Shown here: positions 4,575 through 55,707 of the stretch, piece by piece
Layout: each line of letters starts with the position of its first letter
Position numbering within the stretch: position 1 is the first letter of the stretch
Source: Flavisolibacter nicotianae
Lineage (GTDB): Bacteria; Bacteroidota; Bacteroidia; Chitinophagales; Chitinophagaceae
Length of the DNA stretch: 64,000 nt
NCBI RefSeq assembly: GCF_003628535.1
Contig: NZ_RBCI01000002.1
Coordinates: 620,001 to 684,000, forward strand
Direction of reading: 5' to 3'
The notes under the pieces: model-generated
What the model was told of the DNA's origin: nothing
What the model saw: only the letters and a program-made list of their open reading frames with translations
Databases searched by the model: none
Program-made: the position numbers and the translations under genes

Positions 4575-4606
4575 ACCCTGCCTCGTAAACTTGTGAACTG
4601 CGAACT

Positions 4607-8795: not shown

Positions 8796-9572
8796 TCAGA
8801 CATGCAATTCCAATCCATCGTAGGCAAGATGCATGCCCTCGGGTAAGATGTTTTCAATTTCGTCGTGCCGTCCCAGCTGGTGAGAGATATGCGTGAAATA
8901 CGCTTCCGGAACCTGCAGTTCCTGCACCAGCGCAATGGCTTCATCGAGCGAATAATGCGAGATGTGTTTTTCCTTGCGCAAGGCATTTACCACTACGATT
9001 TTGCTGCCCCAGATCTTTTCCTTTTCGCTTTCGTCGATGCGGTTGGCATCCGTGATGTAAGTAAAGTCGCCAAAGCGAAAGGCAAACACCGGCATCTTCA
9101 GGTGCCAGACCTGCAGGGGGACGATAGGAATATTGCCAACAGAGAAGGCTTCAAGACCGATCGTGTTCAACTCGATGTTGGGAACGCCGGGATATTTTTT
9201 ATCGGCAAAGGCATACGCAAACTCCCGCATCAGCGCATCGATGGTCATGGGGTTGGCATAAACTTCCATGGCCTGCTCCTGGAAATAATTAAAAGCCCGC
9301 ACGTCATCCAACCCGGCGATGTGGTCTTTGTGGGGGTGGGTGAATAAAACAGCGTCGAGCCGTTTTACTTTTTCCCGCAGCATCTGGTAGCGGAAATCAG
9401 GAGTGGTGTCAACCACGATGGTTGTGGAAGGCGATTGCACCATGATGCTGGAACGCAGCCGGGTATCTTTTTCGTTTTTCGACGTGCACACCGCACATTC
9501 GCAGGCAATCATGGGAACGCCGCTGCTGGTGCCGGTGCCAAGAAAGGTAATGGTAAGGGGAGGAGTATTCAC
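8796..9572 (-). CDS. MBL-fold metallohydrolase (PhnP-like)
   Basis: A 258-residue metallo-beta-lactamase-fold hydrolase. It shows the opening ITFLGTGTSSGVP, a Cys pair in ACECAVC, the metal motif FTHPHKDHIAGLDD (HxHxDH), and later YITDAN and HISHQLG metal ligands. The Cys cluster after the first strand resembles PhnP-type phosphodiesterases. The start is a GTG at 9572 (VNTPPLTITFLG). The frame stays open further upstream, but that extension overlaps the next gene out of frame and has no family resemblance. The substrate is unknown. Confidence 0.85.
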   Translation of the reverse strand: MNTPPLTITFLGTGTSSGVPMIACECAVCTSKNEKDTRLRSSIMVQSPSTTIVVDTTPDFRYQMLREKVKRLDAVLFTHPHKDHIAGLDDVRAFNYFQEQAMEVYANPMTIDALMREFAYAFADKKYPGVPNIELNTIGLEAFSVGNIPIVPLQVWHLKMPVFAFRFGDFTYITDANRIDESEKEKIWGSKIVVVNALRKEKHISHYSLDEAIALVQELQVPEAYFTHISHQLGRHDEIENILPEGMHLAYDGLELHV

Positions 9573-9663
9573 AATTGAAAGGTAAGAAGGAAACAAGGAC
9601 GTGGGGCAGTACGCCGTTGGCAGTAAAACGAACCAGTCTGTCATTTCTCCGACTGCATACTGC

Positions 9664-9960
9664 CTACGGCAAACTTTCATCACCGTCGCCCTGCGCTGCA
9701 TGGTAACGGCCCATGATATCGTCGAACCATTTGCGGCTGTCGGGAGAAAGGGCTTCCGCGTCGATTTTGAGTTGCGGCACAAGATCGATCAGGGTGTTGA
9801 TGCGCCCTTCCAGGGGCAGGAATTTATTGAGTACAACCACTTTCCTGTCTTCCAGTATGCAAAAGCCGCTTTGAAAAGAGCCTCGTTCGTACCGGACGAT
9901 GTAGCCGCTTTCTTCAATCATCTTGTCGATTTTGTCAAGTGTTGTCTGCGTATACTTCAT
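9664..9960 (-). CDS. Conserved hypothetical protein, 98 aa
   Basis: Small soluble, probably alpha/beta protein beginning MKYTQTTLDKIDKMIEESGY, with no signal peptide or membrane segment. It contains the VRYERGSFQSGFCILEDRKVVVLNKFLPLEGRINTLIDLV core and ends in an acidic tail. I do not recognise a named family or catalytic motif. It lies on the same strand between the porX-like gene and the MBL hydrolase with short gaps (65 and 91 bp), so the three may form one transcription unit. Confidence 0.7.
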   Translation of the reverse strand: MKYTQTTLDKIDKMIEESGYIVRYERGSFQSGFCILEDRKVVVLNKFLPLEGRINTLIDLVPQLKIDAEALSPDSRKWFDDIMGRYHAAQGDGDESLP

Positions 9961-10025
9961 GTGAAAAAGTCAAAATTCAAAAGGCAAAAGTAAAAAGAGA
10001 GTCTCTATTAAGACAGTCTTTTGCA

Positions 10026-11582
10026 TTATTTGCTCACCATCTGCACCACGGGTACAATCATTTCTTCGAGACTGACACCGCCGTGCTGAAACGTGTTTTT
10101 GTAATAATTCACGTAATGATTGTAATTATTGGGATAGCACAGGAAAACATCCTCGCCGCCAAAGATGTACGACGAATTGATGTTGGGAGAGGGGAGCCCG
10201 ATCTCTTTCGGATCGCGGAAGGCCAGCACTTCTTTGGGATCGTAGTTCAGGTTGCGGCCGTGCTTGTAACGCAGGTTGGTGGTGGTTTGCTTGTCGCCGA
10301 TCACCTTTACCGGCGTTTTTACCTTCACACTGCCATGATCCGTGGCCAGTACGATCTTGATGTTTTTGTCGGCAATTTTTTTCAGCGCCTGGTGCAAAGG
10401 CGAATGTTCGAACCAGGACTTGGTGATACTGCGGTAGCTGACTTCGTCGCCGGCCAATTCTTTCAGCACTTCCATCTCGGTTCGTGCATGGGAAAGCATA
10501 TCGACAAAGTTGTATACGATCACGTTCAGGTCGTTGCCCAGTAAATTATGCACGTTGTTCAACAGGTCAAGACCGGCCTGGTTGTTCAATACCTTCGTGT
10601 ACGAAACCCGCAGGTTGCCTTCACCAAGGGTTTTTAACTGGCTACGTAAAAATTCTTCCTCAAACAAATTCTTTCCGCCTTCTTCGTCGTCGTTTTTCCA
10701 TTGCTGCGGATATTTTTTTTCGATGTCAATCGGCATCAGTCCGGAGAAAATGGCGTTGCGGGCATAATGCGTGGCGGTGGGCAGGATGCTGTAAAACGTG
10801 TCTTCTTCCACCAGCCGGAAACTCTCCAGGAAAATGGGCATGATGGTGCGCCACTGGTCGAAACGCAGGTTGTCGATCAGGACAAAAAACGTGGGAACGC
10901 CTTTTTCAATGTGGGGCATTACTTTTTCACGGACCAGCGTATGCGAAAGAACGGGTTTGTCTTTGACACCGGGTTTTAGCCACGATGCATAGTTCCGGCT
11001 GATGAATTTAAAAAACTCGGTGTTTGCTTCGCTCTTCTGGGCCTGAAACACCTCCTGCATTTCAGGGCTGTCGCTGCGCTGCAGGCTGAGTTCCCAGTGC
11101 ACCAACTCCTTGTAAATACCCATCCACTCGTTGTGGTCAGGATTGGAGTTAAGCGCCATGAACAGGTTGCGGAACTGCTGCTGGTAAGCCGTGGTGGTTT
11201 TTTCCGCTACCAGTCGCCTGTTGTCGATGATTTTTTTCAGCGAAAGCCAAACCTGGTTAGGATTCACAGGCTTGATCAGGTAGTCAGAGATCTGGCTGCC
11301 GATGGCTTCGTCCATCAGGTTCTCGGTTTCGTTTTTAGTAATGAGCACTACCGGAATCTGGGCGTTCACTTCCTTTATTTTCGAAAGGGTTTCCAGGCCG
11401 GTGATGCCGGGCATGGTCTCGTCGAGCAGCACAACATCCACGGCATTTTCCTTTACAAAATCAATGGCATCAAACCCGTTGGTGAGCGTTTGCACATCGT
11501 ATCCCTTGTTCTGCAAAAAAATCTTTTGCGATTGCAGGCTTTCAATTTCATCATCTACCCAAAGAATCTTCGCTAGTGACAT
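10026..11582 (-). CDS. porX: PorX-type response regulator with PglZ/alkaline-phosphatase-like effector domain
   Basis: A 518-residue protein. The N-terminal receiver domain (about 1-120) has the acidic pair VDDE, phospho-acceptor Asp54 in VVLLDETMPG, the T of VLITKN and the K of DYLIKPVNP. The C-terminal half is a PglZ-like domain of the alkaline phosphatase superfamily, with VLIDNLRFDQWRT, YARNAIFSGLMP and VLATDHGSVKV carrying metal-ligand Asp/His residues. This fusion is the hallmark of PorX, which in Bacteroidota works with the kinase PorY to control type IX secretion genes and has been reported as a nucleotide phosphodiesterase. The start is the ATG at 11582 (MSLAKILWVDDE); an earlier in-frame ATG adds nine unlike residues. 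Confidence 0.9.
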   Translation of the reverse strand: MSLAKILWVDDEIESLQSQKIFLQNKGYDVQTLTNGFDAIDFVKENAVDVVLLDETMPGITGLETLSKIKEVNAQIPVVLITKNETENLMDEAIGSQISDYLIKPVNPNQVWLSLKKIIDNRRLVAEKTTTAYQQQFRNLFMALNSNPDHNEWMGIYKELVHWELSLQRSDSPEMQEVFQAQKSEANTEFFKFISRNYASWLKPGVKDKPVLSHTLVREKVMPHIEKGVPTFFVLIDNLRFDQWRTIMPIFLESFRLVEEDTFYSILPTATHYARNAIFSGLMPIDIEKKYPQQWKNDDEEGGKNLFEEEFLRSQLKTLGEGNLRVSYTKVLNNQAGLDLLNNVHNLLGNDLNVIVYNFVDMLSHARTEMEVLKELAGDEVSYRSITKSWFEHSPLHQALKKIADKNIKIVLATDHGSVKVKTPVKVIGDKQTTTNLRYKHGRNLNYDPKEVLAFRDPKEIGLPSPNINSSYIFGGEDVFLCYPNNYNHYVNYYKNTFQHGGVSLEEMIVPVVQMVSK

Positions 11583-36331: not shown

Positions 36332-36910
36332 ATGGATATCAAGCTGAAAGACTTTATTACGGTCACCTTTACCCTGTTTGCCGTCATCGACATTATCGGA
36401 ACCATCCCGATTTTGATTTCCATGAAAAGCAAAATGGGGGAGATCCGCGAGGCGATGGTGACACTGGTGTCGGGGGCGCTGATGGTCTTGTTCCTCTACA
36501 TCGGCGAGCCGCTGCTCAACCTTCTCGGCCTGGATGTTAGTTCGTTTGCCGTAGGCGGTTCCATCGTGATTTTTATTTTGGGTTTGGAGATGGTGCTGGG
36601 CCTGGAGTTTTTTAAAAGCGAAGACAATATACGGTCGGCAACCGTGGTGCCCATTGCCTTTCCACTGATTGCCGGTTCGGGTACGCTGACCACGATCATT
36701 TCGCTCAAGGCTAACTATGCCCCGGCGGTGATTCTCTTTGGCATCCTTGCCAACCTGCTTTTTATTTTTGGTGTGTTAAAATCCCTGCGATTCATTGAAC
36801 AGATCCTCGGACCGGCAGGATTAATTGCCGTGCGAAAGTTTTTTGGCGTAATATTGCTCGCCATTGCGGTAAAGATTTTTGCATTCAATGCACATAGCCT
36901 GATCCGCTGA
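36332..36910 (+). CDS. MarC-family integral membrane protein
   Basis: A 192-residue protein with six predicted helices, starting MDIKLKDFITVTFTLFAVIDIIGTIPI. SGALMVLFLYIGEPLLNLLGLDVSSFAVGGSIVIFILGLEMVLG and the PIAFPLIAGSGTLTTII motif are characteristic of MarC/UPF0056. The function is unclear despite the name (multiple antibiotic resistance locus). It begins 35 bp after the preceding gene. Its 3' half lies under the antisense reading frame of the island recombinase. Confidence 0.9.
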   Translation: MDIKLKDFITVTFTLFAVIDIIGTIPILISMKSKMGEIREAMVTLVSGALMVLFLYIGEPLLNLLGLDVSSFAVGGSIVIFILGLEMVLGLEFFKSEDNIRSATVVPIAFPLIAGSGTLTTIISLKANYAPAVILFGILANLLFIFGVLKSLRFIEQILGPAGLIAVRKFFGVILLAIAVKIFAFNAHSLIR

Positions 36911-38562
36911 TGGTTTTGCTCTTTCTGGCGTCGTAGTACAATGGATAGTATAAGAGTTTCCGAAGCTCCTGATACAGGTTCGATTCCTGTCGACGCTACC
37001 CAAGCCGCACTCTCTAAATTATTCAGAGATGTGCGGCTTTTACATTTCTGTAAAAACCGCTCCAGCTCTGTAACGTAGGCGAAAGCTTCGTTGATTCCCG
37101 TGGTTCGACACCTGTCTTCCGCCCGGTTGTAGAAAATTCCTTCAGGAAAGAGTAAAAATTGAAGCTTTTGCTGACTGCTATAACTCGCAGAACTCCACAT
37201 GGGTGCGAGTTTGGTGGAATAATTGACGGCAAAGTTTACACAGAGTTCAGGGTTCGACACCCCTTTTGACCCTTTTTCCAAGTCTTCAGCCACTTTCTTC
37301 TTTTCGTCTTCGTAATCCTTTACAAAATCCAGGTACAGGTCATAGGGTATTTCCCCTTTTTTCAACCTTTCCTTCTGCCAGGCTATATCCTTGTCAATTT
37401 CCTTAATCCTACCTTCAAAAGCCGATTTATTATCAACCTCTTCTTCGCTGAACTTGTAGTAAGTTGCCAGCATTTGCTTTTCAATGAGAGGCACTAAAGG
37501 TTCTGATTTTAGCGTGTATTGCTCTAAGATGCCTGTAAATTGATCATGTAATGATTCCGCATTCCGATTACAGTTGCAGCCTTTTGTATTGCACTTGTAA
37601 TACCAAATGCCTTTGGCTTTTACGATATATCCTCTTAAAAAAGAGCCACAGGTTTCACATCTTAAAAACCGCTTTAAGGGTATAGCATCATTTTCCTCTG
37701 TGGTGGTATATCCGTGGGCATTGCGGTTCTGTACTTCGTTTACTTTAAGGAAGATTTCTTTTGATATGAGTTTTTCATGGATACCCTCGACTACCTGTCC
37801 TTCTAAAAGATTATGCGATAATAAACCGCAGTAAAAGGGATTACGGAAAATAGAAGACATCTGTTGATGTGAGATCCTTAACCCAAGGGTTGCCAGTCGT
37901 TCTCTTGCCTCTTCATTAGAGACTTGCTCAGTTGCCTTCCACATAAAGGCTTTGCGAAGCAATTTTCCTTGTTCATTGACTACCCAGGACTTTTTGCCTG
38001 CCACTTTACCTCTTTCATAGCCGATGGGCGGACCCTGGCACCATTCGCCCCTAAGTAATGCTTCTTTAATGCCCGTGATACATTTCTCTCTTCGAAGCTG
38101 ATTGTCGTACTCAGAAAAGATGAACTGTATATTTTGCTGCAAGCTTCCATTGGCTGTTGTTGTATCCGTTGGCTGCGTAACGGAGAAAATAACAACGCCC
38201 TGTTGTTTAAGTTGTTGGGCAATATAAATCGCATTAGCCCCTGATCTGGAAAACCGGTCTACGCTATAAACAATGATGTAGGAGATTTTGTCCCTACTTT
38301 TTTTCACAAAAGAAAGCATGTTATTAAACTCCTTTCGTTCATCGGTCTGGGCACTTTCGTAAGTACCCCCAAAATAACCCATGATGGTATAGCCATTCTT
38401 AGTCGCAAACTGCTCGCAATACCTTCTTTGGGTTTGCAGGCTCATATTGTTATCTGCCTGCTCCTTGGTGGATACCCTGGTATAGATAACGCAGTTGCCG
38501 GTTTTGGCCTTTTCTGTTTTGGTTCCTTTACCAAATTGATTAAAAATGATTAATTCACTCAT
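36715..38562 (-). CDS. Large serine recombinase (site-specific integrase) reading through tRNA-Arg
   Basis: The N-terminal resolvase domain has catalytic Ser31 in CVIYTRVSTKEQ and IIVYSVDRFSRSGANAI with conserved Arg residues. A recombinase domain follows (about 160-270: GPPIGYERGK, RISHQQMSSIFRNPFYCG), then a zinc ribbon (LRCETCGSFL ... YKCNTKGCNCNR) and a coiled coil (about 380-430), the layout of large serine integrases. Element-derived sequence ends near residue 522. The last ~90 residues (ASTGIEPVSGASET and beyond) are the antisense of the tRNA and of marC, so the open frame was extended by integration. The natural C-terminus in the excised form is likely different. The start is the ATG at 38562. 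Confidence 0.85.
   Translation of the reverse strand: MSELIIFNQFGKGTKTEKAKTGNCVIYTRVSTKEQADNNMSLQTQRRYCEQFATKNGYTIMGYFGGTYESAQTDERKEFNNMLSFVKKSRDKISYIIVYSVDRFSRSGANAIYIAQQLKQQGVVIFSVTQPTDTTTANGSLQQNIQFIFSEYDNQLRREKCITGIKEALLRGEWCQGPPIGYERGKVAGKKSWVVNEQGKLLRKAFMWKATEQVSNEEARERLATLGLRISHQQMSSIFRNPFYCGLLSHNLLEGQVVEGIHEKLISKEIFLKVNEVQNRNAHGYTTTEENDAIPLKRFLRCETCGSFLRGYIVKAKGIWYYKCNTKGCNCNRNAESLHDQFTGILEQYTLKSEPLVPLIEKQMLATYYKFSEEEVDNKSAFEGRIKEIDKDIAWQKERLKKGEIPYDLYLDFVKDYEDEKKKVAEDLEKGSKGVSNPELCVNFAVNYSTKLAPMWSSASYSSQQKLQFLLFPEGIFYNRAEDRCRTTGINEAFAYVTELERFLQKCKSRTSLNNLESAAWVASTGIEPVSGASETLILSIVLRRQKEQNHQRIRLCALNAKIFTAMASNITPKNFRTAINPAGPRICSMNRRDFNTPKIKSRLARMPKRITAGA
36927..36998 (+). tRNA. tRNA-Arg, anticodon CCG
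   Basis: Folds as a full cloverleaf. The acceptor stem GGCGTCG pairs with CGACGCT (one G-U), the D stem GTAC/GTAT, the T stem ACAGG/CCTGT with loop TTCGATT. The anticodon loop TTCCGAA gives anticodon CCG, reading CGG. The anticodon stem has one A-C mismatch at its base and a U-G pair. CCA is not encoded (ACCC follows). It is the left boundary of the integrated island. Confidence 0.93.
37002..37041 (+). terminator. Strong hairpin immediately after tRNA-Arg
   Basis: AAGCCGCAC pairs with GTGCGGCTT, with an additional CTCT/AGAG inner pairing, followed by TTT. It begins four bases after the tRNA discriminator, so it can end the tRNA transcript. On the other strand it is inside the recombinase reading frame. 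Confidence 0.75.
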
Positions 38563-42921: not shown

Positions 42922-44391
42922 ATGAGTGAATTAGAAACATTACCAGTTGGGTGGACCGAAGCAACATTTGAAGATTTGCTGGATTATATACAACCCGGTC
43001 CTTTTATTGTTAACTCTGAAGAATACGACGACAGTTATAAAACACCCGTTTTAACTGCCGGAAAATCTTTCTTCATAGGTTATACAGATGAAACAAATGG
43101 CATTTTTAATCAGTTGCCTGTTATCATCTTTGATGATTTCACAACTGCAAACAAATTTGTAAATTTTCCTTTTAAGGTAAAGTCTTCTGCAATGAAGATT
43201 TTACCGGCACGTACAGAAGAAGTGAACATCAAGTATGTGTATTACTTCATGCAAACAGTACACATAAAAAGCGAAACACATAAACGTTATTGGATTTCTG
43301 AATATTCCAAGGTTTCAATTCCTTTTGCACCTTTCCATGAACAAAAACGCATCGTTGAGAAAATAGAAGAACTGTTTAGTGAGTTAGATAAAGGAGTGGA
43401 AATATTAGAAAACACACTGCAGCAATTAAGAATTTACCGACATGCAGTTCTTTCTCGTGCCTTCGAAGGAAAGTTTACTTCTAACTGGCGTAAGGAAAAC
43501 AATCATCTTAGGGGACACGATGTACTGCAATTAGTTCAAGAAAAAAGAACAACTGAATTGAATAATCTCATTGCCCAAGGTGATGCAGAAGCAAAAAGAG
43601 TATTGGGAAAGTTAAAGAAGCACAAATTTACCGAACCTGATAACTCTTCCATACCTAAGCAATGGTGTTGGTCAAGTCTGTTGAATGGGTGCTTTTTAGT
43701 TGTGGATTGCCATAACAAAACGGCGCCGTATCAAGACAAAGGCATTTTCCTGATACGAACGACTAACATACGTGATGGTCGCTTGATCTTAGATGATAAA
43801 ATTCATTTTGTATCAGAGGCAACTTATAAAAGATGGTCAAAAAGGTGTCCTCCACAACCGGGCGATATTCTTTTTACACGTGAAGCTCCAATGGGAGAAG
43901 CTGCAATAATTCCTCCCAATACTAAAGTTTGCATGGGTCAACGGACAATGCTTTTGAGAACTTTTCCAGAATTGCTTTTACCGAAGTACATGCATTATGC
44001 TATTATGGATCATTCTTTTCAGCACCGTATGCGTAGTAATGCTATTGGTACAGGTGTAAAACACTTACGAGTTGGCGATGTAGAAGGTTTACTATTTCCT
44101 GTTTGTTCTGTAGAAGAGCAGTTTCAAGTAGTGCAAGAAATCGAAAGTCGCCTTTCTGTTTGCGAAAAAATAGAAGAAACAATTGAAACAGCATTAAAAC
44201 AATCGGAAGCACTTCGCTACAGCATTCTCAAAAAAGCGTTTGAAGGCAAGCTCGTGCCCCAAGATCCAACGGATGAACCAGCCAGCGTTTTATTAGAGAG
44301 AATAAAAGCAGAACGGGAACAAAATAAACCGGTAAAGAAAGTAAGGGAGAAAAAGGCAAGAACTAAAAAGAAAACGAAGCAGGAAGCATGA
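42922..44391 (+). CDS. hsdS: Type I restriction enzyme, specificity subunit
   Basis: A 489-residue HsdS with two target-recognition domains (about 1-150 and 235-410), each ending in a helical spacer (FHEQKRIVEKIEELFSELDKG, and EEQFQVVQEIESRLSVCEKIEETI). SRAFEGKF and KKAFEGKLVPQDPTDEPAS mark the conserved regions. It sets the DNA sequence recognised by the complex. The C-terminus is unusually Lys-rich (VKKVREKKARTKKKTKQEA). It overlaps the next gene by ATGA. Confidence 0.94.
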   Translation: MSELETLPVGWTEATFEDLLDYIQPGPFIVNSEEYDDSYKTPVLTAGKSFFIGYTDETNGIFNQLPVIIFDDFTTANKFVNFPFKVKSSAMKILPARTEEVNIKYVYYFMQTVHIKSETHKRYWISEYSKVSIPFAPFHEQKRIVEKIEELFSELDKGVEILENTLQQLRIYRHAVLSRAFEGKFTSNWRKENNHLRGHDVLQLVQEKRTTELNNLIAQGDAEAKRVLGKLKKHKFTEPDNSSIPKQWCWSSLLNGCFLVVDCHNKTAPYQDKGIFLIRTTNIRDGRLILDDKIHFVSEATYKRWSKRCPPQPGDILFTREAPMGEAAIIPPNTKVCMGQRTMLLRTFPELLLPKYMHYAIMDHSFQHRMRSNAIGTGVKHLRVGDVEGLLFPVCSVEEQFQVVQEIESRLSVCEKIEETIETALKQSEALRYSILKKAFEGKLVPQDPTDEPASVLLERIKAEREQNKPVKKVREKKARTKKKTKQEA

Positions 44392-45089
44392 GTAAGGCAG
44401 CCAAACCAAAACCGAAAAAAGTTACTGCAAAAAAAAGCGTAGCGAAAAAAGCTGCTCCTAAAAAGGCTGTCGCTAAGAAAGCTGCACCAAAGAAGGCGGT
44501 TGCAAAAAAGGTGGCTGCAAATATAGTTGTTGATGATCCGGACAGGAAGCTGACAATTATGGTTTCGTCAACCGTATATGGGATGGAAAGTGACCTTGAC
44601 CAGATCGCTGCAATATTAAGACAGCAGTATGGTTACAATGTTGTCATGTCAAAGGAGGGTAGCGTTTATGTTCCTGTTGAATTTATTGACAGCCCGGAAA
44701 AAGCTTGTTTAAAAGCAGTTGCAGATTGTGATCTCTTCTTCGGAATTGTTTTTCCCAGATACGGTTCTGGTATAACACACAAAGAGTTTAAGGAGGCAGT
44801 CAGGTTAGATAAACCTCGCTGGTTTATTGCCCATGAAAAAATTGAATTTTTAAGAAAGCTATTTCAACAATTTATGTTTGATAAAGATGGCAAACGCAAT
44901 GCTTTCGATATTAAAAAGACAACTGTTTTAGACAGCATTAAAGTGGTGGATATGTATAATGACGTTCGCCAAAACTGGGTGCAGTCTTTCACTACAATTG
45001 ATGAAGTAATGTTATTCCTGGAAACACAGTTTGGCGATATGAAAAAGCGGATCGAAGAAATTGACAATCGTAAAAACAAAAAGAAATGA
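44388..45089 (+). CDS. DUF4062-domain protein with histone H1-like basic tail
   Basis: A 233-residue protein. Residues 1-45 are a Lys/Ala/Pro repeat (KKAAPKKAVAKKAAPKKAVA) like the tail of histone H1-type proteins. Residues ~55-200 match the DUF4062 domain (TIMVSSTVYGMESDLDQIAAIL, CDLFFGIVFPRYGSGITHKEF), a Rossmann-like fold often found in defence and NTPase/TIR-type signalling proteins. The acidic tail ends the protein. It overlaps hsdS by 4 bp and the next gene by 4 bp, so all three are translationally linked. Role in restriction is inferred only. Confidence 0.8.
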   Translation: MSKAAKPKPKKVTAKKSVAKKAAPKKAVAKKAAPKKAVAKKVAANIVVDDPDRKLTIMVSSTVYGMESDLDQIAAILRQQYGYNVVMSKEGSVYVPVEFIDSPEKACLKAVADCDLFFGIVFPRYGSGITHKEFKEAVRLDKPRWFIAHEKIEFLRKLFQQFMFDKDGKRNAFDIKKTTVLDSIKVVDMYNDVRQNWVQSFTTIDEVMLFLETQFGDMKKRIEEIDNRKNKKK

Positions 45090-46621
45090 ACGAAGAACAA
45101 CTCATAGAAGACCTTTTAAAAGAAGGCGAAAGCGATCAGCTTGAGTTTAAAGAAGTTGTTCGCAAAGATGATGTGGCTAAAGTGCTTTGTAGTTTTTTGA
45201 ACGGCAAAGGCGGTCGCATTTTAATTGGCATATCTGATAAGGGCAAAGTGATAGGCATATCAAACGCCGATAAGCATGTCGAGGAATTGAAATTATTTTT
45301 GGTTTCTGCTATCATACCCGAAGCGCCGATCAATATAGCCCTTGATCGTGCAGAGGACAAGGATATAATTACAATTAAAGTTTATGGTGGCTCAAAACAG
45401 CCTTATTTATTTGATGGAAGCATTTATTACCGAAAAGGTGCTTCGACAGTTAAAGCAACGTCCCAGCAAATTTCAGAACTGATACATGGTCGTCAAAAGG
45501 CTGAACAGCATTGGGAGAGAAAGCCAGCTATTGGAGTTGACCTTGATGATCTTGATAATAAACTGATACTTTCAACCATTAAAGAAAGCCTGGAAAATCA
45601 TAGAGGTAATTACAAAAGCAACGATGTGCTTGAATTTCTTACTCACTATGGTCTGTTTCAGAATGGCTCCTTTACCCATGCTTGCGTAGTGTTGTTTGCT
45701 AAAAATCCGGCGAGGTATGTTCCGCAGATAAGAGTGCGGCTTACTGAATATGCGGAAGGAAAGACAGATAGATCATTACTTCGTGATGAAGTATTGGAAG
45801 ATAACCTCTTTACCATCCAGGATAAGTTAGAGCGTTACATCAACAACCTGGGGGTGCGCAGCATTTTCGAAGAAAAGCAATGGAAGAGAGTTGATTTCAA
45901 GTTTCCGATAAAAGCATTGCAGGAGGGAGTAATAAATGCATTAATGCACAGGGATTATTCCAGTCCTTCCAGTGGCGTTTCAATTAGCGTCTATCCCGAC
46001 AGTTTTGTTATATCGAATAGTGGGCATTTACCTGATGACTTAAAAGTAAGTGAGTTAAAAAAGAGCCATCGTTCTCATCCTGTAAATCCGGATATAGCTC
46101 ATATAGTATTTCTCAGGGGTTTAATTGATAAGCTGGGCAGAGGCACAGTAAAGTTGGTAGAAGAATGTCGCAAAGAGGGCTTAAAAGACCCTATTTGGAA
46201 AGACACTATTGATGGAGTTACCCTAACGTTTCAGGGTCCAAGAGCCTTACCTAAAAAAGGTCGTGAAACTGATGGTGAAAGTGATGGTGTAAATGATGGT
46301 GTAAATGAGGCTGTAAATACGTTGATTAATGATGGTGTAAATGATGGTGTAATTGGGGAGGTAAATGATGGTGTAAAGAAAGAGATTATTAAAGTAATTC
46401 GTATCATAAGGGATAACGAGGGACTTAAAGCTCTTGATATTGCTACCAAGAGGGGTAAGTCAAAACCCACGATAGAACGTTATTTAAAACTGGCTAAAGA
46501 CTTGGAAATCATAGAATTTAAAGGAGCCCCTAAGAAGGGGGGTTATTTTCTTACGAGGAAGATTACAGATAGGCTTCAAGGACAGGGATCACTTAATGAT
46601 GGTGCAAATCATACAAAATGA
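45086..46621 (+). CDS. AlbA_2/Schlafen-type ATP-binding protein with NDGV repeat tail
   Basis: A 511-residue protein. The N-terminal Schlafen AlbA_2 domain is ESDQLEFKEVVRKDDVAKVLCSFLNGKGGRILIGI. A HATPase_c_4-type region follows (about 250-385: ALQEGVINALMHRDYSSPSSGVSISVYPD; FLRGLIDKLGRGTVKLVEEC). Residues ~392-432 are a repetitive linker of NDGV units, and a winged-helix-like C-terminus follows (ALDIATKRGKSKPTIERYLKLAKDLEIIEFKG). Such proteins are common transcription regulators and are also found in defence loci. It sits between DUF4062 and hsdM in an RM operon. Confidence 0.85.
   Translation: MNEEQLIEDLLKEGESDQLEFKEVVRKDDVAKVLCSFLNGKGGRILIGISDKGKVIGISNADKHVEELKLFLVSAIIPEAPINIALDRAEDKDIITIKVYGGSKQPYLFDGSIYYRKGASTVKATSQQISELIHGRQKAEQHWERKPAIGVDLDDLDNKLILSTIKESLENHRGNYKSNDVLEFLTHYGLFQNGSFTHACVVLFAKNPARYVPQIRVRLTEYAEGKTDRSLLRDEVLEDNLFTIQDKLERYINNLGVRSIFEEKQWKRVDFKFPIKALQEGVINALMHRDYSSPSSGVSISVYPDSFVISNSGHLPDDLKVSELKKSHRSHPVNPDIAHIVFLRGLIDKLGRGTVKLVEECRKEGLKDPIWKDTIDGVTLTFQGPRALPKKGRETDGESDGVNDGVNEAVNTLINDGVNDGVIGEVNDGVKKEIIKVIRIIRDNEGLKALDIATKRGKSKPTIERYLKLAKDLEIIEFKGAPKKGGYFLTRKITDRLQGQGSLNDGANHTK
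46276..46380 (+). repeat. 12-bp tandem repeats encoding NDGV units
   Basis: Degenerate copies of GATGGTGTAAAT recur through this coding stretch of the AlbA_2 gene. Because the unit is 12 bp, changes in copy number keep the reading frame and would lengthen or shorten a linker. Similar words continue past the stop codon (46597-46740). Confidence 0.8.
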
Positions 46622-48471: not shown

Positions 48472-49362
48472 CTATTTGCTATAACCGTTGACAATAACTA
48501 TTGTTCTGGATTTTTTCAGCTCTCCAAAAGGAAAGAATAGAACAAAGGCGTTATAACCATTATTGAAAAACTGATAGGTAAATTTTACAGTTCCATTTTT
48601 TGTAGTAAGATCAATCAAACCATCTTTTATAAACTTACGGCCGTGGCAATAGTGCTGAACAAACTCCCAATTATGTTCCAATGTTGGTGGGAAAATAATT
48701 TCGCCAAAAGCCTCGGCAAAGGACTGTGATGTCAAAAAGTTCCGGATCCCGCAATGTGGTTTATCGGTTTTGATGGGTTTCTCGAGGATAAGCAACGCAC
48801 ACCTGTTCTTTGAACAATCAATATATCTTCTAAGCGAGGCGTGTATGGAAGCACCAAAATGTTTGGCTAGATGCATTGCCGAGTCAATGCTTAAATTGAG
48901 TTTGTTTAATTCGGAAATGAAACGATCATGTTGGAAAAGAGTAATGGATGCAAAGTAGTTTGCTTCGGCCTCAAATTCTTCATTGGCCTCCGGGCTTAAG
49001 GTGTGTTCATCATCGCCCAGGATGTCATTGATTTCTCTTTGCCAAGGGAGGATACCATGGGCTGTTTCATGTAGCTTAACGAAATTTTTGCGGTTGAAAC
49101 CTTGGGAAAGATCCAGATAGATGGTTTTTTGTCTTCGATCAAATATGCCGCGAACTTTTGACAAGGCTCTTTTTAAAACACTGTTGGCTTTGTCGATAAA
49201 GCTGGGATGAATTTTTGAAACATCGAGATCCTTTCTTACGATAAGTTCTGAATAGGCAACAATTTTATCAACCGGCGTTGGGAATATGTCAAGGCTTTTG
49301 CTGTTTTTCAAAACATCGAGAGAAATTTTCTCGATGTCATTTTTTGCATGGAGGTCAACCAT
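48472..49362 (-). CDS. ImmA/IrrE-type metallopeptidase domain protein
   Basis: A 296-residue protein with the zinc-protease motif HETAH (residues 98-102, KLHETAHGILPWQ) and the downstream ANYFAS Glu-containing helix, typical of ImmA/IrrE peptidases that cleave or inactivate a partner repressor. A C-terminal domain of about 110 residues follows, possibly a sensor. Its start overlaps the 3' end of the upstream HTH gene by 8 bp, so the two form a repressor-protease pair. In mobile elements such pairs de-repress after DNA damage or another stress. Confidence 0.88.
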   Translation of the reverse strand: MVDLHAKNDIEKISLDVLKNSKSLDIFPTPVDKIVAYSELIVRKDLDVSKIHPSFIDKANSVLKRALSKVRGIFDRRQKTIYLDLSQGFNRKNFVKLHETAHGILPWQREINDILGDDEHTLSPEANEEFEAEANYFASITLFQHDRFISELNKLNLSIDSAMHLAKHFGASIHASLRRYIDCSKNRCALLILEKPIKTDKPHCGIRNFLTSQSFAEAFGEIIFPPTLEHNWEFVQHYCHGRKFIKDGLIDLTTKNGTVKFTYQFFNNGYNAFVLFFPFGELKKSRTIVIVNGYSK

Positions 49363-49690
49363 TTTGCTGACGGAGTACCTTTAGGTAGGTTAAGAGTGCC
49401 CGTTCCTCCTCCGCAGAAAGCTGTTGCGCTGACAAAGCAGCGTTATTAAACAGCTTATTTTTTGCGTCCTGCGATTCCTGAATTATACCTGCCGCTGCTA
49501 ACAGATTATTCAGCTCCACATTGTAAATGCTTGCCAGCTTGTAAAGAATATTTGCCGAAGGCTTTTTGATCTTGTTGTTTTCTAGCTGACTTAAATAGGC
49601 ATTTGAAATCCCGGTAGCTTCCTCAACCTGTCTTAGAGTAAGCGACATCAGTTCACGGGAATCTTTCAGTGTTTGTCCCAGTGATCTCAT
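49355..49690 (-). CDS. XRE-family HTH repressor partner of the ImmA-like protease
   Basis: A 111-residue DNA-binding protein with a Cro/CI-type domain (TLRQVEEATGISNAYLSQLENNKIKKPS, about residues 17-44) and a Leu-rich C-terminal helix that may dimerise. It overlaps the ImmA gene. Its own promoter faces the divergent small gene across about 140 bp, the natural place for an operator. It likely represses one or both of these units. Confidence 0.88.
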   Translation of the reverse strand: MRSLGQTLKDSRELMSLTLRQVEEATGISNAYLSQLENNKIKKPSANILYKLASIYNVELNNLLAAAGIIQESQDAKNKLFNNAALSAQQLSAEEERALLTYLKVLRQQNG

Positions 49691-49831: not shown

Positions 49832-50062
49832 ATGAAAAAGACTCAACACGTAGTTAAGCACCAAGATGGCTGGGCTATAAAAGGCGCCGGCAACAGTAAG
49901 GCCACTAAAGTAACCCCTACCCAAGGAGAAGCTATAAAGGTGGCTGTGGGCATTGCAAAGAATCAACATTCAGAAGTGGTTATCCATGGAAGGGATGGAA
50001 AAATCCGTGACAAGGACAGTTACGGTAATGATCCAAAAACCATTAAAGACACCAAACATTAG
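49832..50062 (+). CDS. DUF2188-like small protein, 76 aa
   Basis: Basic, compact protein (MKKTQHVVKHQDGWAIKGAGNSKATKV ... VVIHGRDGKIRDKDSYGNDP). The HxxGWAVKxxG opening and the closing GRDGKIRxKDSYGNDP are the DUF2188 signature. The function is unknown; the fold is thought to be small and beta-rich. It has its own promoter and is the first gene toward the ubiquitin-like cassette. Confidence 0.82.
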   Translation: MKKTQHVVKHQDGWAIKGAGNSKATKVTPTQGEAIKVAVGIAKNQHSEVVIHGRDGKIRDKDSYGNDPKTIKDTKH

Positions 50063-50286: not shown

Positions 50287-50574
50287 ATGAACACAGATTC
50301 AATTAACAAAATTCAAGACAAAGACAAAAATCACTCTAAGCAGACCACCATTATTGTAAATGGCAGAAACAAGACCTGGAATGAAAAGACTATCTCTTTT
50401 CAGCAGGTAGCAGAACTGGCCTTTGGTAAGTACGAAGACAATGGCGTAACAGCTTATACTGTGACTTACAAAAAAGGCGAGGGTAATAAACCTGAAGGCT
50501 CCATGGTTAAGGATGAAACAATTCATGTAAAAGATAAAATGATTTTCAATGTCACAGCAACTAATAAATCATAG
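50287..50574 (+). CDS. Ubiquitin-like protein, multiubiquitin-domain family
   Basis: A 95-residue protein with a single beta-grasp domain of the multiubiquitin type. The pattern TIIVNGRNKTWNEKTISF, VAELAFGKYEDNGVTAYTV, TYKKGEGNKPEGSMVKDE and IHVKDKMIFNVTATNKS matches that family's INGR...ISF...YTVTYxxG...VKxxMxFxVxxTNxS order. The first ~18 residues are a charged extension. It ends TNKS without a Gly-Gly. Its 3' end overlaps the E1-like gene by 26 bp, so the two are translated together. It is likely the modifier of a bacterial conjugation system. Confidence 0.87.
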   Translation: MNTDSINKIQDKDKNHSKQTTIIVNGRNKTWNEKTISFQQVAELAFGKYEDNGVTAYTVTYKKGEGNKPEGSMVKDETIHVKDKMIFNVTATNKS

Positions 50575-51727
50575 TCCTGATCTTAAGAAGCTCAGGGATG
50601 AAGGGTATGAGATTGAAATCCAGGGCGGACACTTAGTTGTCCGCCATATACCTTACGTGAACAGTACGAAACAGGTTTGTTTTGGTACGCTAGTGACAAA
50701 TCTTGATATGGTCAGTGTTACCAGAACCGCACGTCCGGGTACGCATGTTATTTATTTCCAAGGAGCGCATCCATGCAATAAAGACGGAAGTATATTGTCT
50801 GCTATACATCACCAGACGCATACACAATCAATAGGCCCAAACCTTGTTGTTCAACATTCATTTTCAAATAAACCCATAAAGGGTTATGCAGACTATTATG
50901 AAAAAGTGACCCGCTATGCTGAAATTATTTCGGCACCAGCCAAGGCCATTGACTGTAGCGTAACTGCACAAACGTTCAAAGCTGTGGTAGATACCGATGA
51001 ACACAGCGTTTTGAAATTTGTAGACACCAATTCTAGTCGCTCCAATTTATATGAGGTAATGAAAAAACTGCAGGGGCAGAAAATTGCTATTATTGGATTG
51101 GGCGGAACGGGCGCCTACATACTGGATGCCATTGCCAAAACACCTGTGCAGGAAATTCATTTGTTTGACGGTGATCTTTATTTGCTGCACAATGCGTTTC
51201 GTTCGCCCGGGGCGCCGACAAAGGAAGTGCTAGACAGACAAATGAAGAAGGTTCATTATTACCAGGAATTATATTCCAACTTCCACAAGAACATCATTGC
51301 ACATGATTACTACATGATAGAGGAACGGCTCCATGAATTGGAAGAGATGACTTATGTGTTTGTTGCCGTGGATAAAGGATCAGTGAAGGAACCTTGGTTA
51401 AAGTATTTTGTAGATAAAGGTCTTGCTTTTATTGATGTGGGTATGGGCATTCATAAGATTGATGATAAATTGATAGGTATTTTGCGAATTACCACTGCAA
51501 CGAAGGATAAAAACGATCATCTTGAACATCGCATTGCCTTAGCAGATGATGATGGAGATGAATATCAAAGCAACATCCAGATATCGGAACTGAATGCCCT
51601 GAATGGCTCATTGGCTGTTGTGAAATGGAAAAAGCTTTGTGGCTTCTATCAAGATCTCGAAGAGGAGCACCATACTACTTATTCTATTAACGTATCACAA
51701 CTACTCAATGAAGATAATGCAGCATAG
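50549..51727 (+). CDS. ThiF/E1-like adenylating enzyme with fused N-terminal (E2-like/DUF6791) domain
   Basis: A 392-residue protein. Residues ~10-145 form a domain (LVVRHIPYVNSTKQVCFGTL, HVIYFQGAHPCNKDG, GYADYYEKVTRYAEIISAPAKAID) resembling the DUF6791 domain that accompanies ThiF in these operons and has been suggested to be E2-like. Residues ~175-385 are the adenylating Rossmann domain: GLGGTG 183-188, DGD 207-209, Arg218 in NAFRSPG, and VD at 274-275. Only four Cys (44, 76, 136, 364) are present and no CxxC zinc pairs. It should activate the Ubl C-terminus with ATP and may transfer it onward within the same chain. Confidence 0.85.
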   Translation: MSQQLINHSPDLKKLRDEGYEIEIQGGHLVVRHIPYVNSTKQVCFGTLVTNLDMVSVTRTARPGTHVIYFQGAHPCNKDGSILSAIHHQTHTQSIGPNLVVQHSFSNKPIKGYADYYEKVTRYAEIISAPAKAIDCSVTAQTFKAVVDTDEHSVLKFVDTNSSRSNLYEVMKKLQGQKIAIIGLGGTGAYILDAIAKTPVQEIHLFDGDLYLLHNAFRSPGAPTKEVLDRQMKKVHYYQELYSNFHKNIIAHDYYMIEERLHELEEMTYVFVAVDKGSVKEPWLKYFVDKGLAFIDVGMGIHKIDDKLIGILRITTATKDKNDHLEHRIALADDDGDEYQSNIQISELNALNGSLAVVKWKKLCGFYQDLEEEHHTTYSINVSQLLNEDNAA

Positions 51728-52070
51728 GTTTGTAGACAGCATTCCGGAACAGCTAGACGAAGGTGTCTTATACATTTCATTGACTTATTCCACAGTCATA
51801 CACAAATGTGTGTGTGGCTGCGGCAATGAAGTAGTCACTCCCCTTTCGCCAACAGATTGGGAATTGACATTCAATGGCGAAACAGTATCGTTATATCCTT
51901 CCATTGGCAACTGGGGCTTTGAATGCCAATCGCATTATTTTATTACAAGAAATAAAATAAAGCATGCTTTAAAATGGAGTGACAAGCAAATTGAAAGAGG
52001 AAGAAAAGCGGAACAAGCTGAGAAGAAAAAGTATTTTAGCAAGAGAAAACGAAAACGTAGGAAAGAATGA
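51717..52070 (+). CDS. DUF6527-like Cys/His protein of the Ubl cassette
   Basis: A 117-residue protein, MQHRFVDSIPEQLDEGVLYIS, with CVCGCGNEVVTPLSPTDW and SIGNWGFECQSHYF. C31, C33, C35, C70 and H73 are candidate zinc ligands, and the pattern matches DUF6527 proteins known from ubiquitin-like operons. The Arg/Lys-rich tail (FSKRKRKRRKE) may contact nucleic acid or acidic partners. It overlaps the E1-like gene by 11 bp (starts possible at 51708 or 51717). Its biochemical role is not established; a link to conjugation or deconjugation is inference. Confidence 0.82.
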   Translation: MQHRFVDSIPEQLDEGVLYISLTYSTVIHKCVCGCGNEVVTPLSPTDWELTFNGETVSLYPSIGNWGFECQSHYFITRNKIKHALKWSDKQIERGRKAEQAEKKKYFSKRKRKRRKE

Positions 52071-52123
52071 ATTAGATCCTGTAAGCAAGCACCGAATCCC
52101 CGGCTGACTTTTAATAATGGAAG

Positions 52124-52162
52124 AGTGGAAGGAAATACATTTAATTATTCTTCCACTTTTTT
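52124..52162 (+). terminator. Terminator after the Ubl cassette
   Basis: AGTGGAAG (52124-52131) pairs with CTTCCACT (52150-52157) and is followed by T residues. It separates the Ubl cassette from the AAA/S8 pair, which has its own promoter just downstream. Confidence 0.7.
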
Positions 52163-52175
52163 ATATCGGTAATTA

Positions 52176-52204
52176 TTGTTTTACAATAGTTTAAATTACT
52201 TTTG
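52176..52204 (+). promoter_or_regulatory. Promoter for the AAA/S8 pair
   Basis: TTG (52176-52178), 18-nt spacer, TACTTTTG (52197-52204). It overlaps a potential TTG start at 52202, which argues that translation begins at the ATG at 52259 instead. Confidence 0.55.
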
Positions 52205-52258
52205 GAAGAGAAATCAGTATTTTTCACTTCATTTCTTCCACCTGACAAAAATGATTTA

Positions 52259-53446
52259 ATGGATTCCCAGAATCAGGATTTAACCAAAGACTTTGTTCAA
52301 CTGGCCCGTATTGCCTTATCTGGGCGCATACAGGATATTCAATTATTAATTCACCGTGCCTCTAAACGATATAAAACTTCTTTCCCTGAAATGGCGAGTG
52401 GCCTCGTTTCACTTTTACAGGAATCACCATCACAGATGTCTCCGTTACGTAAGCATAATGATGTTCCTATACCAGTGGATGTGGATTCACGTCTTCAATT
52501 ACTTCGTGTTGAAAACGGTTTTTTCGACCATGAGCCTATCTTTTCGGATGAACTTCAGTATGTTTTGCAACAAATATTATCTGAGCGAAGAAACAGCAAA
52601 TCATTAATTGATCAGGGCTTGCACCCTACGAAGTCCTTATTGTTCACCGGGCCTCCGGGAGTTGGAAAAACCTTAGCAGCCAAATGGATTGCTTCACAAT
52701 TACGCCGTCCGCTACTGGTTTTGGATTTGGCTGCCGTGATGAGCAGTTTCTTGGGAAGAACGGGCAATAACATTCGTCATGTTTTAGACTATGCCAAGAA
52801 AACAGAATGTGTGCTTTTACTTGACGAATTTGACTCCATTGCTAAGAGAAGAGATGATAATAGCGAAATAGGCGAATTGAAACGTTTAGTGACAGTACTG
52901 TTACAGGAAATTGATGATTGGCCTCCAACAGGGTTGCTTATAGCCGCGACCAACCATCCGGATTTATTAGATCCTGCCGTATGGCGACGGTTTGAGGCAA
53001 TACTTCGTTTTTCGAATCCCACCCGCGAACAAATTGAACGACAGATAAGAAATTTGTTACACCACCAAAAAGATAACACGGAGCTATGGAGCCAGATACT
53101 TTCATATGTTTTCAACGGCAGCTCGTTTAGTGATGTAGAAAGACATATTAATTTCATAAGGAAATCATCAGCAATCTCCGGGAGATCAATGGAGGAAAGT
53201 GTGCAGTCTTTTTTACAATCGCTGGAATTAAAACTATCGCATGATCAGAGAGTGGAATTGGCTTGCGTGTTACACAAAAGCGGCTTTGTATCCCAAAGAG
53301 GCGCACAGGAGCTAACTGGCATTGCAAGAGAAACAATACGTAAACACAATAGCATTAGAGCTGATACTCAACAAATGCATCATAAAACGACAAAGGGTTC
53401 ATCCAAACCTGACAAAAAGAAAACAAGCAAGAGCAACAAAAACTAA
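52259..53446 (+). CDS. AAA-family ATPase of an ATPase/protease pair
   Basis: A 395-residue AAA protein. N-terminal ~110 residues are helical. The ATPase domain has Walker A GPPGVGKT (131-138), Walker B LLLDEFD (186-192), sensor-1 Asn in AATNHPD (about 232) and the RRF arginine-finger pair (243-244). The C-terminal part includes a helix-turn-helix-like SGFVSQRGAQELTGIARETIRKH and a Lys-rich end. ATPases of this type with an adjacent subtilisin recur in defence islands, where the ATPase may unfold or gate substrate. It ends 5 bp before the protease gene. Confidence 0.88.
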   Translation: MDSQNQDLTKDFVQLARIALSGRIQDIQLLIHRASKRYKTSFPEMASGLVSLLQESPSQMSPLRKHNDVPIPVDVDSRLQLLRVENGFFDHEPIFSDELQYVLQQILSERRNSKSLIDQGLHPTKSLLFTGPPGVGKTLAAKWIASQLRRPLLVLDLAAVMSSFLGRTGNNIRHVLDYAKKTECVLLLDEFDSIAKRRDDNSEIGELKRLVTVLLQEIDDWPPTGLLIAATNHPDLLDPAVWRRFEAILRFSNPTREQIERQIRNLLHHQKDNTELWSQILSYVFNGSSFSDVERHINFIRKSSAISGRSMEESVQSFLQSLELKLSHDQRVELACVLHKSGFVSQRGAQELTGIARETIRKHNSIRADTQQMHHKTTKGSSKPDKKKTSKSNKN

Positions 53447-53451
53447 CTAAA

Positions 53452-55707
53452 ATGGCCAAACGAAATTTCTTATTGGGGAAAGGCGAACGGTTAACAGAAC
53501 CTGTGCAGGGGACTTCGGGCCCTGTAAACAAAATTGCGCCGTACACATTTTCGGAGGCTAAACAACGTTTGCAACCCATGATTGAAACCGTAGCAAAGGA
53601 AGTTGAACAACTGCCCGCAGATGCATGTCCGGATGATTTAGCGGTAGCATCGATTACTTTAAATCCTGAATACATTGCCAAATCGTATTATCCGACTGAT
53701 TTACTGCGTTCCGTAGGTTTGGAAACTATAGGAAGCCGCAACCGCCACATGAAACCCGAAAAGAAAAGTCGTGGTCGTGAACCGGAAGAAACTATAACTA
53801 CGGAATTATTTGTAATAGGGAAGCGGCCTAGCTTTATACAATGGGCTAACCAGTTTGGTTCTCTTGAAGAATCCAATCCGGGAGCTGAACAAATTGTTGC
53901 AATTGAACAAATTGCTTTTCCAAAATCTGGAGAAAAAATAAAAAGTATCGATACTAATAATAAAAGAAAGGTTTATGAAGTGGTTCTGCATGTTGATGAG
54001 GAATACGGCGAAAAGAAATACTTAGAGTTATTCAAAAACTATCTTACCAAATTTGATCTCAAACCAGATTTCAAGCATCGCTTTTATGCAGGAGGATTGT
54101 GCTTTTTAGAAATAGAAGCTCCGGCTGAATTGATCAGTGAGATAGCCCAATTCAGCCTCGTTCGGGTTATCAGGACTATGCCTTCTTTACGACTGCTTGA
54201 CCCTGCTACACGAATCACCGACATGGATAACAGCATCGAGGTTGATTTGCCGGATGAAGACGCAGTGAACCCTGATATTAATGTTGCCATTTTTGATGGC
54301 GGAATACCTGAAGATCATCCTATTTGCAGATGGGTTACCCCGATAGACGGCATGGGTGTCGGACCTTCACACCCGAAACTTCTTAAACACGGTGTGGGCG
54401 TAACTTCTGCTTTTTTATTTGGTCATATTGACCCAAGAAAACCTTTACCGCAGCCATATGCTTATGTAGATCATTATAGGGTATTGGACATTGATCCTAC
54501 TGCGAATCCAAGAGAGCTTTATGAAGTACTGGAGCGAATAGACAATGTGCTCACCACTAAAAAGTATGATTTTATCAATCTAAGTATTGGTCCTGCCATA
54601 CCTGTTGAAGATGATGACGTACATGCGTGGACAGCAGTACTAGACGACCACTTGTCCAAAGGAACCTTGCTTGCGACTATTGCGGTAGGTAATGAAGGTG
54701 AAAAAGATCCTTCCATAGGCGCTAACCGGGTACAGGTGCCGGGAGATTGTGTAAATGGGTTATGCATTGGAGCCTGCGATACACCGGAATCGAAATGGCA
54801 GAAAGCTTCTTATAGTTCGGTGGGGCCTGGCCGAAGTCCTGGCTTAGTGAAGCCTGACCTTGTAGAATTCGGAGGGTCAATTGACCGGCCTTTCCTCACT
54901 TTAGATTCTGAAAATGGATTAAGGTTATCACCAACAAGCGGAACAAGCTTTTCAACTCCGAGTACGATGAGAATGGGGGTAGGAGTAAAAGCGCATTTTG
55001 GAAATTCATTGAATGCACTGGCCATTCGAACATTGCTGGTCCATTGTTGTGAACGTGCGGATCTTCCGGAGTTTGAGGTCGGATGGGGACGAGTTGCCAG
55101 GGTATTGGACGAAGTTGTAATTTGTGATGATCATGTAATGCGTGTAGTCTACCAGGGTACAATTTCAGCATCTAAATATGTTAGGGTGCCTATTCCTTTG
55201 CCGAGTAGTACATTGGATGGTATGGTAAAAGTAAAGGCTACTATTTGTTATGCAACATCAGTTGATCCCCATCACCCCGGCAATTATACCCGAAGCGGTT
55301 TGGAAATTGTATTTCGTCCTAACAAAGACGTACATGCTGATGTAAAGGTTGACGGAAAGAAAACAGGGCAAAAATCTTTTCACCCACAGTCCAAACCTTT
55401 TTTCGCAAAAACGCAGAAGCAATATGCAACTGAAGAAGAGTTAAGAAGGGATGCATGGAAATGGGAAAATTGCTTACATGGTGAGAACAGGTTTAGGGGA
55501 ACGAGTTTAAACGACCCTGTGTTTGACATCCATTATAATGCAAGGCTGGCCGGACATAATGATACCAGCAAGCAGGAAATCAATTATGCAATGGTTATTA
55601 CAGTAGAAGCACCCAAAGTAAAAGACCTGTATGATCAAGTTCTTAGAAAATACGCAACGCAGTTAGAACAATTGCTTCCTGTAATTGACATTCCACTCAA
55701 GGTATAA
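53452..55707 (+). CDS. Subtilisin-like S8 peptidase of an ATPase/protease pair
   Basis: A 751-residue protease without a signal peptide, so probably cytoplasmic. The catalytic triad is intact: Asp282 in VAIFDGG, His313 in LLKHGVGVTSA, Ser499 in SGTSFSTPS, with oxyanion Asn414 in AVGNEGE. A ~270-residue N-terminal domain may be a prodomain or regulator, and a ~240-residue C-terminal domain follows. It is co-transcribed with the AAA gene and likely works with it. By analogy with other ATPase/protease defence pairs it may be activated by infection; direct evidence is lacking. Confidence 0.9.
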   Translation: MAKRNFLLGKGERLTEPVQGTSGPVNKIAPYTFSEAKQRLQPMIETVAKEVEQLPADACPDDLAVASITLNPEYIAKSYYPTDLLRSVGLETIGSRNRHMKPEKKSRGREPEETITTELFVIGKRPSFIQWANQFGSLEESNPGAEQIVAIEQIAFPKSGEKIKSIDTNNKRKVYEVVLHVDEEYGEKKYLELFKNYLTKFDLKPDFKHRFYAGGLCFLEIEAPAELISEIAQFSLVRVIRTMPSLRLLDPATRITDMDNSIEVDLPDEDAVNPDINVAIFDGGIPEDHPICRWVTPIDGMGVGPSHPKLLKHGVGVTSAFLFGHIDPRKPLPQPYAYVDHYRVLDIDPTANPRELYEVLERIDNVLTTKKYDFINLSIGPAIPVEDDDVHAWTAVLDDHLSKGTLLATIAVGNEGEKDPSIGANRVQVPGDCVNGLCIGACDTPESKWQKASYSSVGPGRSPGLVKPDLVEFGGSIDRPFLTLDSENGLRLSPTSGTSFSTPSTMRMGVGVKAHFGNSLNALAIRTLLVHCCERADLPEFEVGWGRVARVLDEVVICDDHVMRVVYQGTISASKYVRVPIPLPSSTLDGMVKVKATICYATSVDPHHPGNYTRSGLEIVFRPNKDVHADVKVDGKKTGQKSFHPQSKPFFAKTQKQYATEEELRRDAWKWENCLHGENRFRGTSLNDPVFDIHYNARLAGHNDTSKQEINYAMVITVEAPKVKDLYDQVLRKYATQLEQLLPVIDIPLKV

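Follow-up and report, generated by a model that had tools for sequence, protein, structure and literature searches.

The window analysed here, a 64,000-nucleotide stretch of DNA from Flavisolibacter nicotianae, very probably contains an intact and ordinary Bub operon of the kind that lacks JAB and has a DUF6791-E1 protein, working by the steps proposed below. The operon encodes a ubiquitin-like protein (Ubl), an E1-like protein in which a DUF6791 domain precedes a ThiF domain, and a DUF6527 protein (Table 1). Its membership in Bub rests on gene content, gene order and a structure match. Bub operons have a UBL, an E1, an E2 and a specific protease (PMC12687455). The window operon would represent a compact tagging pathway of three genes, for tests of which two or three proteins suffice, and it comes from Bacteroidota, a phylum other than that of the solved Citrobacter system.

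Table 1. Features of the operon, its control genes, its neighbours and the island edge, in positions of the window.
Feature	Position	Strand	Details
Large serine recombinase, left island edge	36718..38562	-	Resolvase 4.7e-28, Recombinase 1e-9
tRNA-Arg(ccg), island integration site	36926..37002	+	ARAGORN
CapP-like ImmA/IrrE (M78) metallopeptidase	48472..49362	-	Peptidase_M78 6e-9; PADLOC capP 1e-17
CapH-like HTH repressor	49355..49690	-	HTH_3 2.6e-12; PADLOC capH 1e-10; overlaps capP by 8 nt
DUF2188 small protein, first gene on the Ubl side	49838..50062	+	Pfam 1.5e-24; PADLOC PDC-S16 7e-33
Ubl (BubA-like)	50287..50574	+	95 aa; one Multi_ubiq domain, Pfam 1.3e-17; native C-terminus ...TNKS
Dual-coding overlap, Ubl 3' end and E1 5' end	50549..50574	+	26 nt
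DUF6791-ThiF E1-like gene	50549..51727	+	392 aa
DUF6791 domain, proposed fused E2	50576..51028	+	Residues 10-160; Pfam 1.4e-56
ThiF/E1 adenylation domain	51053..51724	+	Residues 169-392; Pfam ThiF 1.4e-8
DUF6527 gene	51717..52070	+	117 aa; Pfam DUF6527 9.5e-25
U-tailed terminator-like hairpin	52117..52164	+	Between DUF6527 and IetA
IetA-like AAA ATPase, neighbour outside the operon	52202..53446	+	PADLOC IetA 3e-82; below NCBIfam equivalog cut-off
IetS-like S8 peptidase, neighbour	53452..55707	+	PADLOC IetS 2e-42; below NCBIfam equivalog cut-off

The three open reading frames, their strand and both overlaps (26 nt and 11 nt) are present in the sequence as initially annotated. The Multi_ubiq, DUF6791, ThiF and DUF6527 matches in Pfam are all above the curated cut-offs, and they bear out the earlier placement of the first gene in the multiubiquitin family, of the second as a ThiF/E1-like enzyme with an extra N-terminal domain, and of the third as DUF6527-like. 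The NCBIfam model PRK06153 spans the whole length of the DUF6791-ThiF protein. For the DUF6527 gene, the most likely start is the ATG at 51717, which gives the 11-nt overlap with the E1 gene; the alternative start returned by the ORF lister, a GTG at 51639, gives a 143-aa form. The operon has no separate gene for an E2, an E3 or JAB, as the initial annotation stated, and neither a JAB domain nor Prok-E2_E was found by Pfam in the three proteins; the accompanying view that the pathway lacks E2 and protease functions or borrows them is probably wrong. Nor does the description of the cassette as notably minimal stand. The gene set is normal for the subtype, and the unit is larger than three genes, because the divergent CapP/CapH-like genes and the DUF2188 gene, overlooked earlier, belong to it. 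Downstream, the hairpin folds as RNA at -19.6 kcal/mol (z -4.0), with 0 of 200 shuffles as good.

Relatives of the DUF6791-ThiF protein are encoded in at least 585 genome stretches in a scan of one genome per species, and the best 80 of these at least 585 relatives span many phyla, including one record labelled as an uncultured archaeon. In the phylum of the window, DUF6791 was found in 14 of 395 sampled genomes. The E1 also occurs in 115 plasmid records and in four viral contigs only, and none of the phage records searched has it. The 80 genome loci were picked by similarity to the window and include some near-copies, so the counts that follow describe its nearer relatives. Both the Ubl and the DUF6527 protein are present, in the same order, at 101 of 108 mapped E1 open reading frames; the exceptions are JAB-type E1s (loci L059, L060, L061 and L063), the second E1 of L098 and contig ends.

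For the AlphaFold model of the E1 (mean pLDDT 89.5), the top Foldseek matches are the Citrobacter BubCD, BubCD-BubB and BubCD-BubB-BubA structures (E 2e-13). Because BubCD is the best solved-structure match, the operon is assigned to Bub and, within it, to the JAB-less kind. On re-alignment with VIA over residues 149-392, BubCD (9ea4) and ThiF score equally (Z 23.8), and the Foldseek and VIA searches of the model returned ThiF-domain matches only. A profile search of PDB sequences with the E1 also ranked BubCD first (E 3.4e-10). Family matches, conserved gene order and structure match together thus agree with the Bub-type operon that had been named from the sequence.

The solved Citrobacter BubCD, BubB and BubA proteins (PDB 9ea4, 9ea5, 9ea8, 9eae and 9eav) share with the window a Multi_ubiq Ubl, a downstream DUF6527, a ThiF-type E1 with an aligned Tyr, control of the CapPH type and an island or plasmid setting. 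However, the Citrobacter plasmid operon has Ubl and E2 fused in a 363-aa precursor and JAB fused to the E1, whereas the kind found in the window has no JAB, carries DUF6791 fused to the E1 and has a Ubl natively ending in Ser. The Citrobacter BubA(155-229) construct ends at Gly229, inside the Ubl-E2 fusion of the plasmid homologue, which would need cutting. A further structural relative is the ZDHYS365 multi-ubiquitin domain protein (PDB 9cd2). Its final domain aligns with the window Ubl, starting at residue 19 and running to the C-terminus ...TDKS (E 1.1e-11); that protein has 222 aa with further Ubl domains upstream, whereas the window Ubl is single-domain.

Type II CBASS Cap2 and Bil provide bacterial E1/E2 conjugation chemistry in immune islands. 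These systems are Cys-based in E1 and E2 and have JAB-type proteases, and the window has no CD-NTase, JAB or Bil-type Ubl. The window does match the type 6e subset of Iyer et al. 2006 (PMC1779556), in which one to three Ubl repeats are accompanied by a small Cys/His protein and by an E1 whose N-terminal domain is uncharacterised. For this domain a JAB-like role was guessed in that paper, and for the small protein a zinc finger (PMC1779556), whereas the evidence gathered here favours an E2 and a Ser-His protease, respectively.

The adenylation residues D209, N215, R218, K234 and D275 are invariant or nearly so among relatives, and the ThiF domain would adenylate the C-terminus of the Ubl. No conserved Cys was found in the ThiF domain among the aligned relatives. 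The Ubl would then pass to an E1 nucleophile, most likely Tyr339, which is kept in 96 of 97 E1s. R313 and T/S315 are nearly invariant too, position 315 being Thr or Ser in 97 of 97, which makes T315 the rival candidate. As judged from alignments, Tyr339 is the likelier of the two, since it is common to the JAB type: it aligns with the Tyr that is BubCD Tyr370 (hhalign against four JAB-type E1s, probability 98.4, E 4e-15; the residue-number offset of 2 in BubCD was checked against JAB Asp104). The structure 9eav carries Y370F in BubCD. The ThiF fold is also common to sulfur-carrier enzymes, and the genes might in principle be a relic or a sulfur-carrier (ThiS/ThiF-like) pathway without conjugation. 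That is exceedingly improbable: the active-site positions of the window operon are all intact, the Ubl has no sulfur-carrier Gly-Gly tail, the linkage to DUF6527 is strict, and the closest structures are those of BubCD.

The tail of the Ubl is strongly conserved. The protein ends in Ser in 98 of 98 relatives and in four further plasmid loci (102 of 102), and a C-terminal Ser also ends the 9cd2 protein. This Ser is encoded by TCN throughout, the third base being free. The residue that shares these bases in the E1 frame can be H, R, L or P, which indicates that the Ser is conserved on account of the Ubl and not of the E1. The overlap itself is equally regular. In 101 of 101 Ubl/E1 pairs (about 98 loci from more than 10 phyla), the E1 ATG lies at the exact 26-nt offset, and the Ubl residue at -8 is always N, D, H or Y (xAT codons). 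The same 26 nt were found in all four plasmid loci annotated independently by NCBI or the submitters (Rhizobium, Acidiphilium, Leptolyngbya and Tritonibacter), and they are retained in loci with a split DUF6791. An overlap that recurs in this way is more than chance, and translational coupling is its simplest reading; the tight stoichiometry that the initial annotation drew from the overlaps is conjectural. A frameshift fusion of Ubl and E1 was dropped as an explanation, the E1 frame being open for only two codons upstream of its ATG. The exact overlap and the constant terminal Ser both appear to be unreported. The Ubl would thus be made with its final C-terminus, ...TNKS; because it ends natively at the conserved tail, no processing protease would be needed, and this may be why the JAB-less kind does without JAB.

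After the E1 nucleophile, the Ubl would move to a fused E2 domain, for which DUF6791 is most likely responsible, because it is a separate gene in the E2 position of JAB-type operons in three loci. In these loci (L053, L057 and L138), DUF6791 is an open reading frame of its own between the Ubl and ThiF, the slot between Ubl and E1 that is occupied in JAB-type operons by a Prok-E2_E gene. The domain is modelled by AF2 as alpha/beta, with a helix, a beta-meander and a helix, mostly at pLDDT 87-97. H66, P75, S106 and Y123 are invariant in 97 of 97 sequences, and C76 is present in 95 of 97, with His in the other two. Ser106 would most likely be the residue that carries the Ubl, as an oxyester like that on the E1 rather than a thioester; C76 is the rival candidate for the E2 nucleophile. 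A colinear but weak alignment with Prok-E2_E puts Ser106, by eye, near the Ser of the E2 motif WSRH. Profile similarity between the two families is not significant by hhalign (E 0.15 with five sequences; E 0.019 and probability 2.4 with 15 sequences), and the Prok-E2 Pfam model had no match in the 23 DUF6791 members scanned, in which only DUF6791 was found. Proof by sequence that DUF6791 is an E2 was therefore given up.

This lack of a significant match to Prok-E2_E also suits a different reading, in which conjugation takes place but DUF6791, as Iyer et al. 2006 speculated, serves for processing or regulation instead of JAB, and the E1 transfers the Ubl directly or through a host factor. In type 6e the uncharacterised N-terminal domain of the E1 stands in the place of JAB (Iyer et al. 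2006, PMC1779556), and in the loci seen here a separate E2 accompanies JAB. We nevertheless consider this reading unlikely, given the separate DUF6791 genes in the E2 slot and the position of Ser106 in the weak alignment. A Ubl that is natively ended needs no processing enzyme, and DUF6791 did not show the usual zinc motif of JAB. With DUF6791 as the E2, the Ubl would finally be attached to targets. The operon makes several points testable: which E1 residue carries the Ubl, whether DUF6791 acts as an E2, and whether a Ubl is able to function with a C-terminal Ser instead of Gly.

The DUF6527 protein would remove the Ubl again by means of Ser62 and His73 (residues are numbered from the ATG at 51717). 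H29, C31, C33, C35, S62, C70, S72 and H73 are invariant in 100 of 100 DUF6527 relatives; the Cys and His residues in this list (H29, C31, C33, C35, C70 and H73) substantiate the Cys/His set that had been noted in the third protein. In the DUF6527 proteins of JAB-type operons, the Ser62 position (in a PS pair) persists, as does His73 in most cases (L063 is without the His), but Ser72 is not kept, and this persistence points to Ser62 and His73 as a pair. DUF6527 is therefore probably a deconjugating Ser-His protease with a Cys/His cluster. Bub reportedly acts via oxyesters, and operons called type II are said to encode a Ser-His protease, which the invariant Ser and His of DUF6527 presumably correspond to. 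The AF2 model of the protein is confident (mean pLDDT 93.7). No solved relative was found by sequence or by Foldseek (none below E 1), and no VIA match was above Z 2.6, which does not imply a new fold.

The operon is located in a mobile island, as had been proposed. A large serine recombinase is encoded at the left edge, at a tRNA-Arg(ccg), and a congener (L240) shows the empty site: in it, no more than about 200 nt separate the tRNA-Arg(ccg) from the downstream regulator, which starts near 59.9 kb in the window. Since the tRNA of this congener directly precedes the regulator, about 22.8 kb have been inserted in the window. Recombinase-like sequence occurs at this tRNA in a second congener (L237). 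Direct repeats of at least 18 nt flanking the island were not found. Besides the Bub unit and the serine recombinase, the island contains a type I restriction system, the IetAS-like pair and a TonB receptor, and the presence of the restriction system and the IetAS-like pair upholds the earlier view of the setting as a defence island. Between hsdS and hsdM, there are a DUF4062 protein (44388-45089) and a 511-aa protein (45086-46621). The open reading frame of the latter contains, at 46244-46389, nine register-shifted copies of a 12-nt repeat, which give DGVN-like repeated units.

A controller next to the operon (CapW, CapH+CapP or CapK+CapS) is frequent in Bub although not obligatory, and the divergent CapP/CapH-like pair upstream of the window operon fits this. 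The assignment is based on modest PADLOC scores, and for the capH candidate HTH_VI scores higher (7e-13) than capH (1e-10); the pair is nevertheless the likely controller. By extension from characterised CapH+CapP pairs, CapH would repress the unit, ssDNA or DNA damage would activate CapP, and CapP would cleave CapH and so turn the operon on. Among 88 Bub loci with enough upstream sequence, a divergent upstream ImmA/IrrE relative was found in 50 and a divergent upstream HTH relative in 33, and DUF2188 lies near the Bub genes in 18. The layout of the window recurs in Tritonibacter mobilis (L249), in which divergent ImmA/IrrE and HTH genes are followed by DUF2188, Ubl, ThiF and DUF6527. In a published count of 544 Bub operons, 219 had CapW or CapH+CapP (PMC13373217). 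ImmA/IrrE and HTH pairs also lie upstream of the JAB-type Bub operons of L156, L163 and L063, including the one on plasmid pSYSX of Synechocystis PCC 6803.

Such CapPH-like control suggests a trigger by DNA damage, and the operon could accordingly serve a general response to DNA damage or stress instead of phage defence. The Bub authors state that protection against phage has yet to be demonstrated for Bub, and they leave this reading open (PMC13373217). We regard it as a serious possibility but the lesser one, because the island also carries the type I restriction system and IetAS, because Bub is frequent on plasmids (the 115 records above), and because a gene resembling an anti-phage dCTP deaminase lies inside three sister operons, between the E1 and DUF6527 genes (L094, at 9186-11144, L100 and L101; PADLOC dCTPase 2.5e-124 in L094). 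Any anti-phage role of the window operon is likewise putative. The occurrence of the deaminase inside three operons looks new, as does the replacement of CapPH by IetAS upstream in 11 loci, and cooperation of Bub with either the deaminase of the sister operons or IetAS has become testable. In L070 and L123, a relative of the dCTP deaminase is located just downstream of the Bub genes on the other strand.

In the 11 loci concerned (L049, L072, L074, L078, L082, L088, L089, L091, L096, L099 and L106), IetA and IetS are located directly upstream of Bub on the same strand, in most cases with DUF2188 between, and in the window the IetAS-like pair directly follows Bub. CapPH-like genes were found upstream in none of the 11 IetAS loci but in 52 of the 81 others (Fisher 4e-5, in a test that ignores relatedness). 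The IetAS and CapPH states are scattered on the E1 tree, and near-identical E1s occur with IetAS in L089 and with CapP in L090; the swap therefore seems to have happened repeatedly. This arrangement and the mutual exclusion would suit a tag-and-destroy analogue of the ubiquitin-proteasome system, in which Bub marks proteins and the adjacent IetA and IetS degrade them. That mechanism is nevertheless improbable. A sample of 32 IetA-like regions from the phylum contained no Bub genes, and five inspected plasmid loci with IetAS have none annotated, so IetAS does its work in the absence of Bub; a dedication of IetAS to Bub was rejected on the same two counts. The IetA of the window groups with stand-alone IetAs, and the terminator-like hairpin separates it from the DUF6527 gene. 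Moreover, clustering of defence genes is expected in any case, and the counts are inflated by related loci. Also improbable is the broader proposal that, in some Bacteroidota, Bub and IetA/IetS belong to a single composite immune unit that unfolds and destroys conjugated proteins and of which the window would carry a looser version. If true, Bub-IetAS would be a ubiquitin-proteasome-like pathway assembled from unrelated protease parts. Three other loci, L075 (at 3772-5976), L114 and L136, each encode an IetS-like S8 peptidase of about 734 aa that adjoins a CapP-like gene, with no recognised IetA, and in all three DUF2188 is located downstream of DUF6527.
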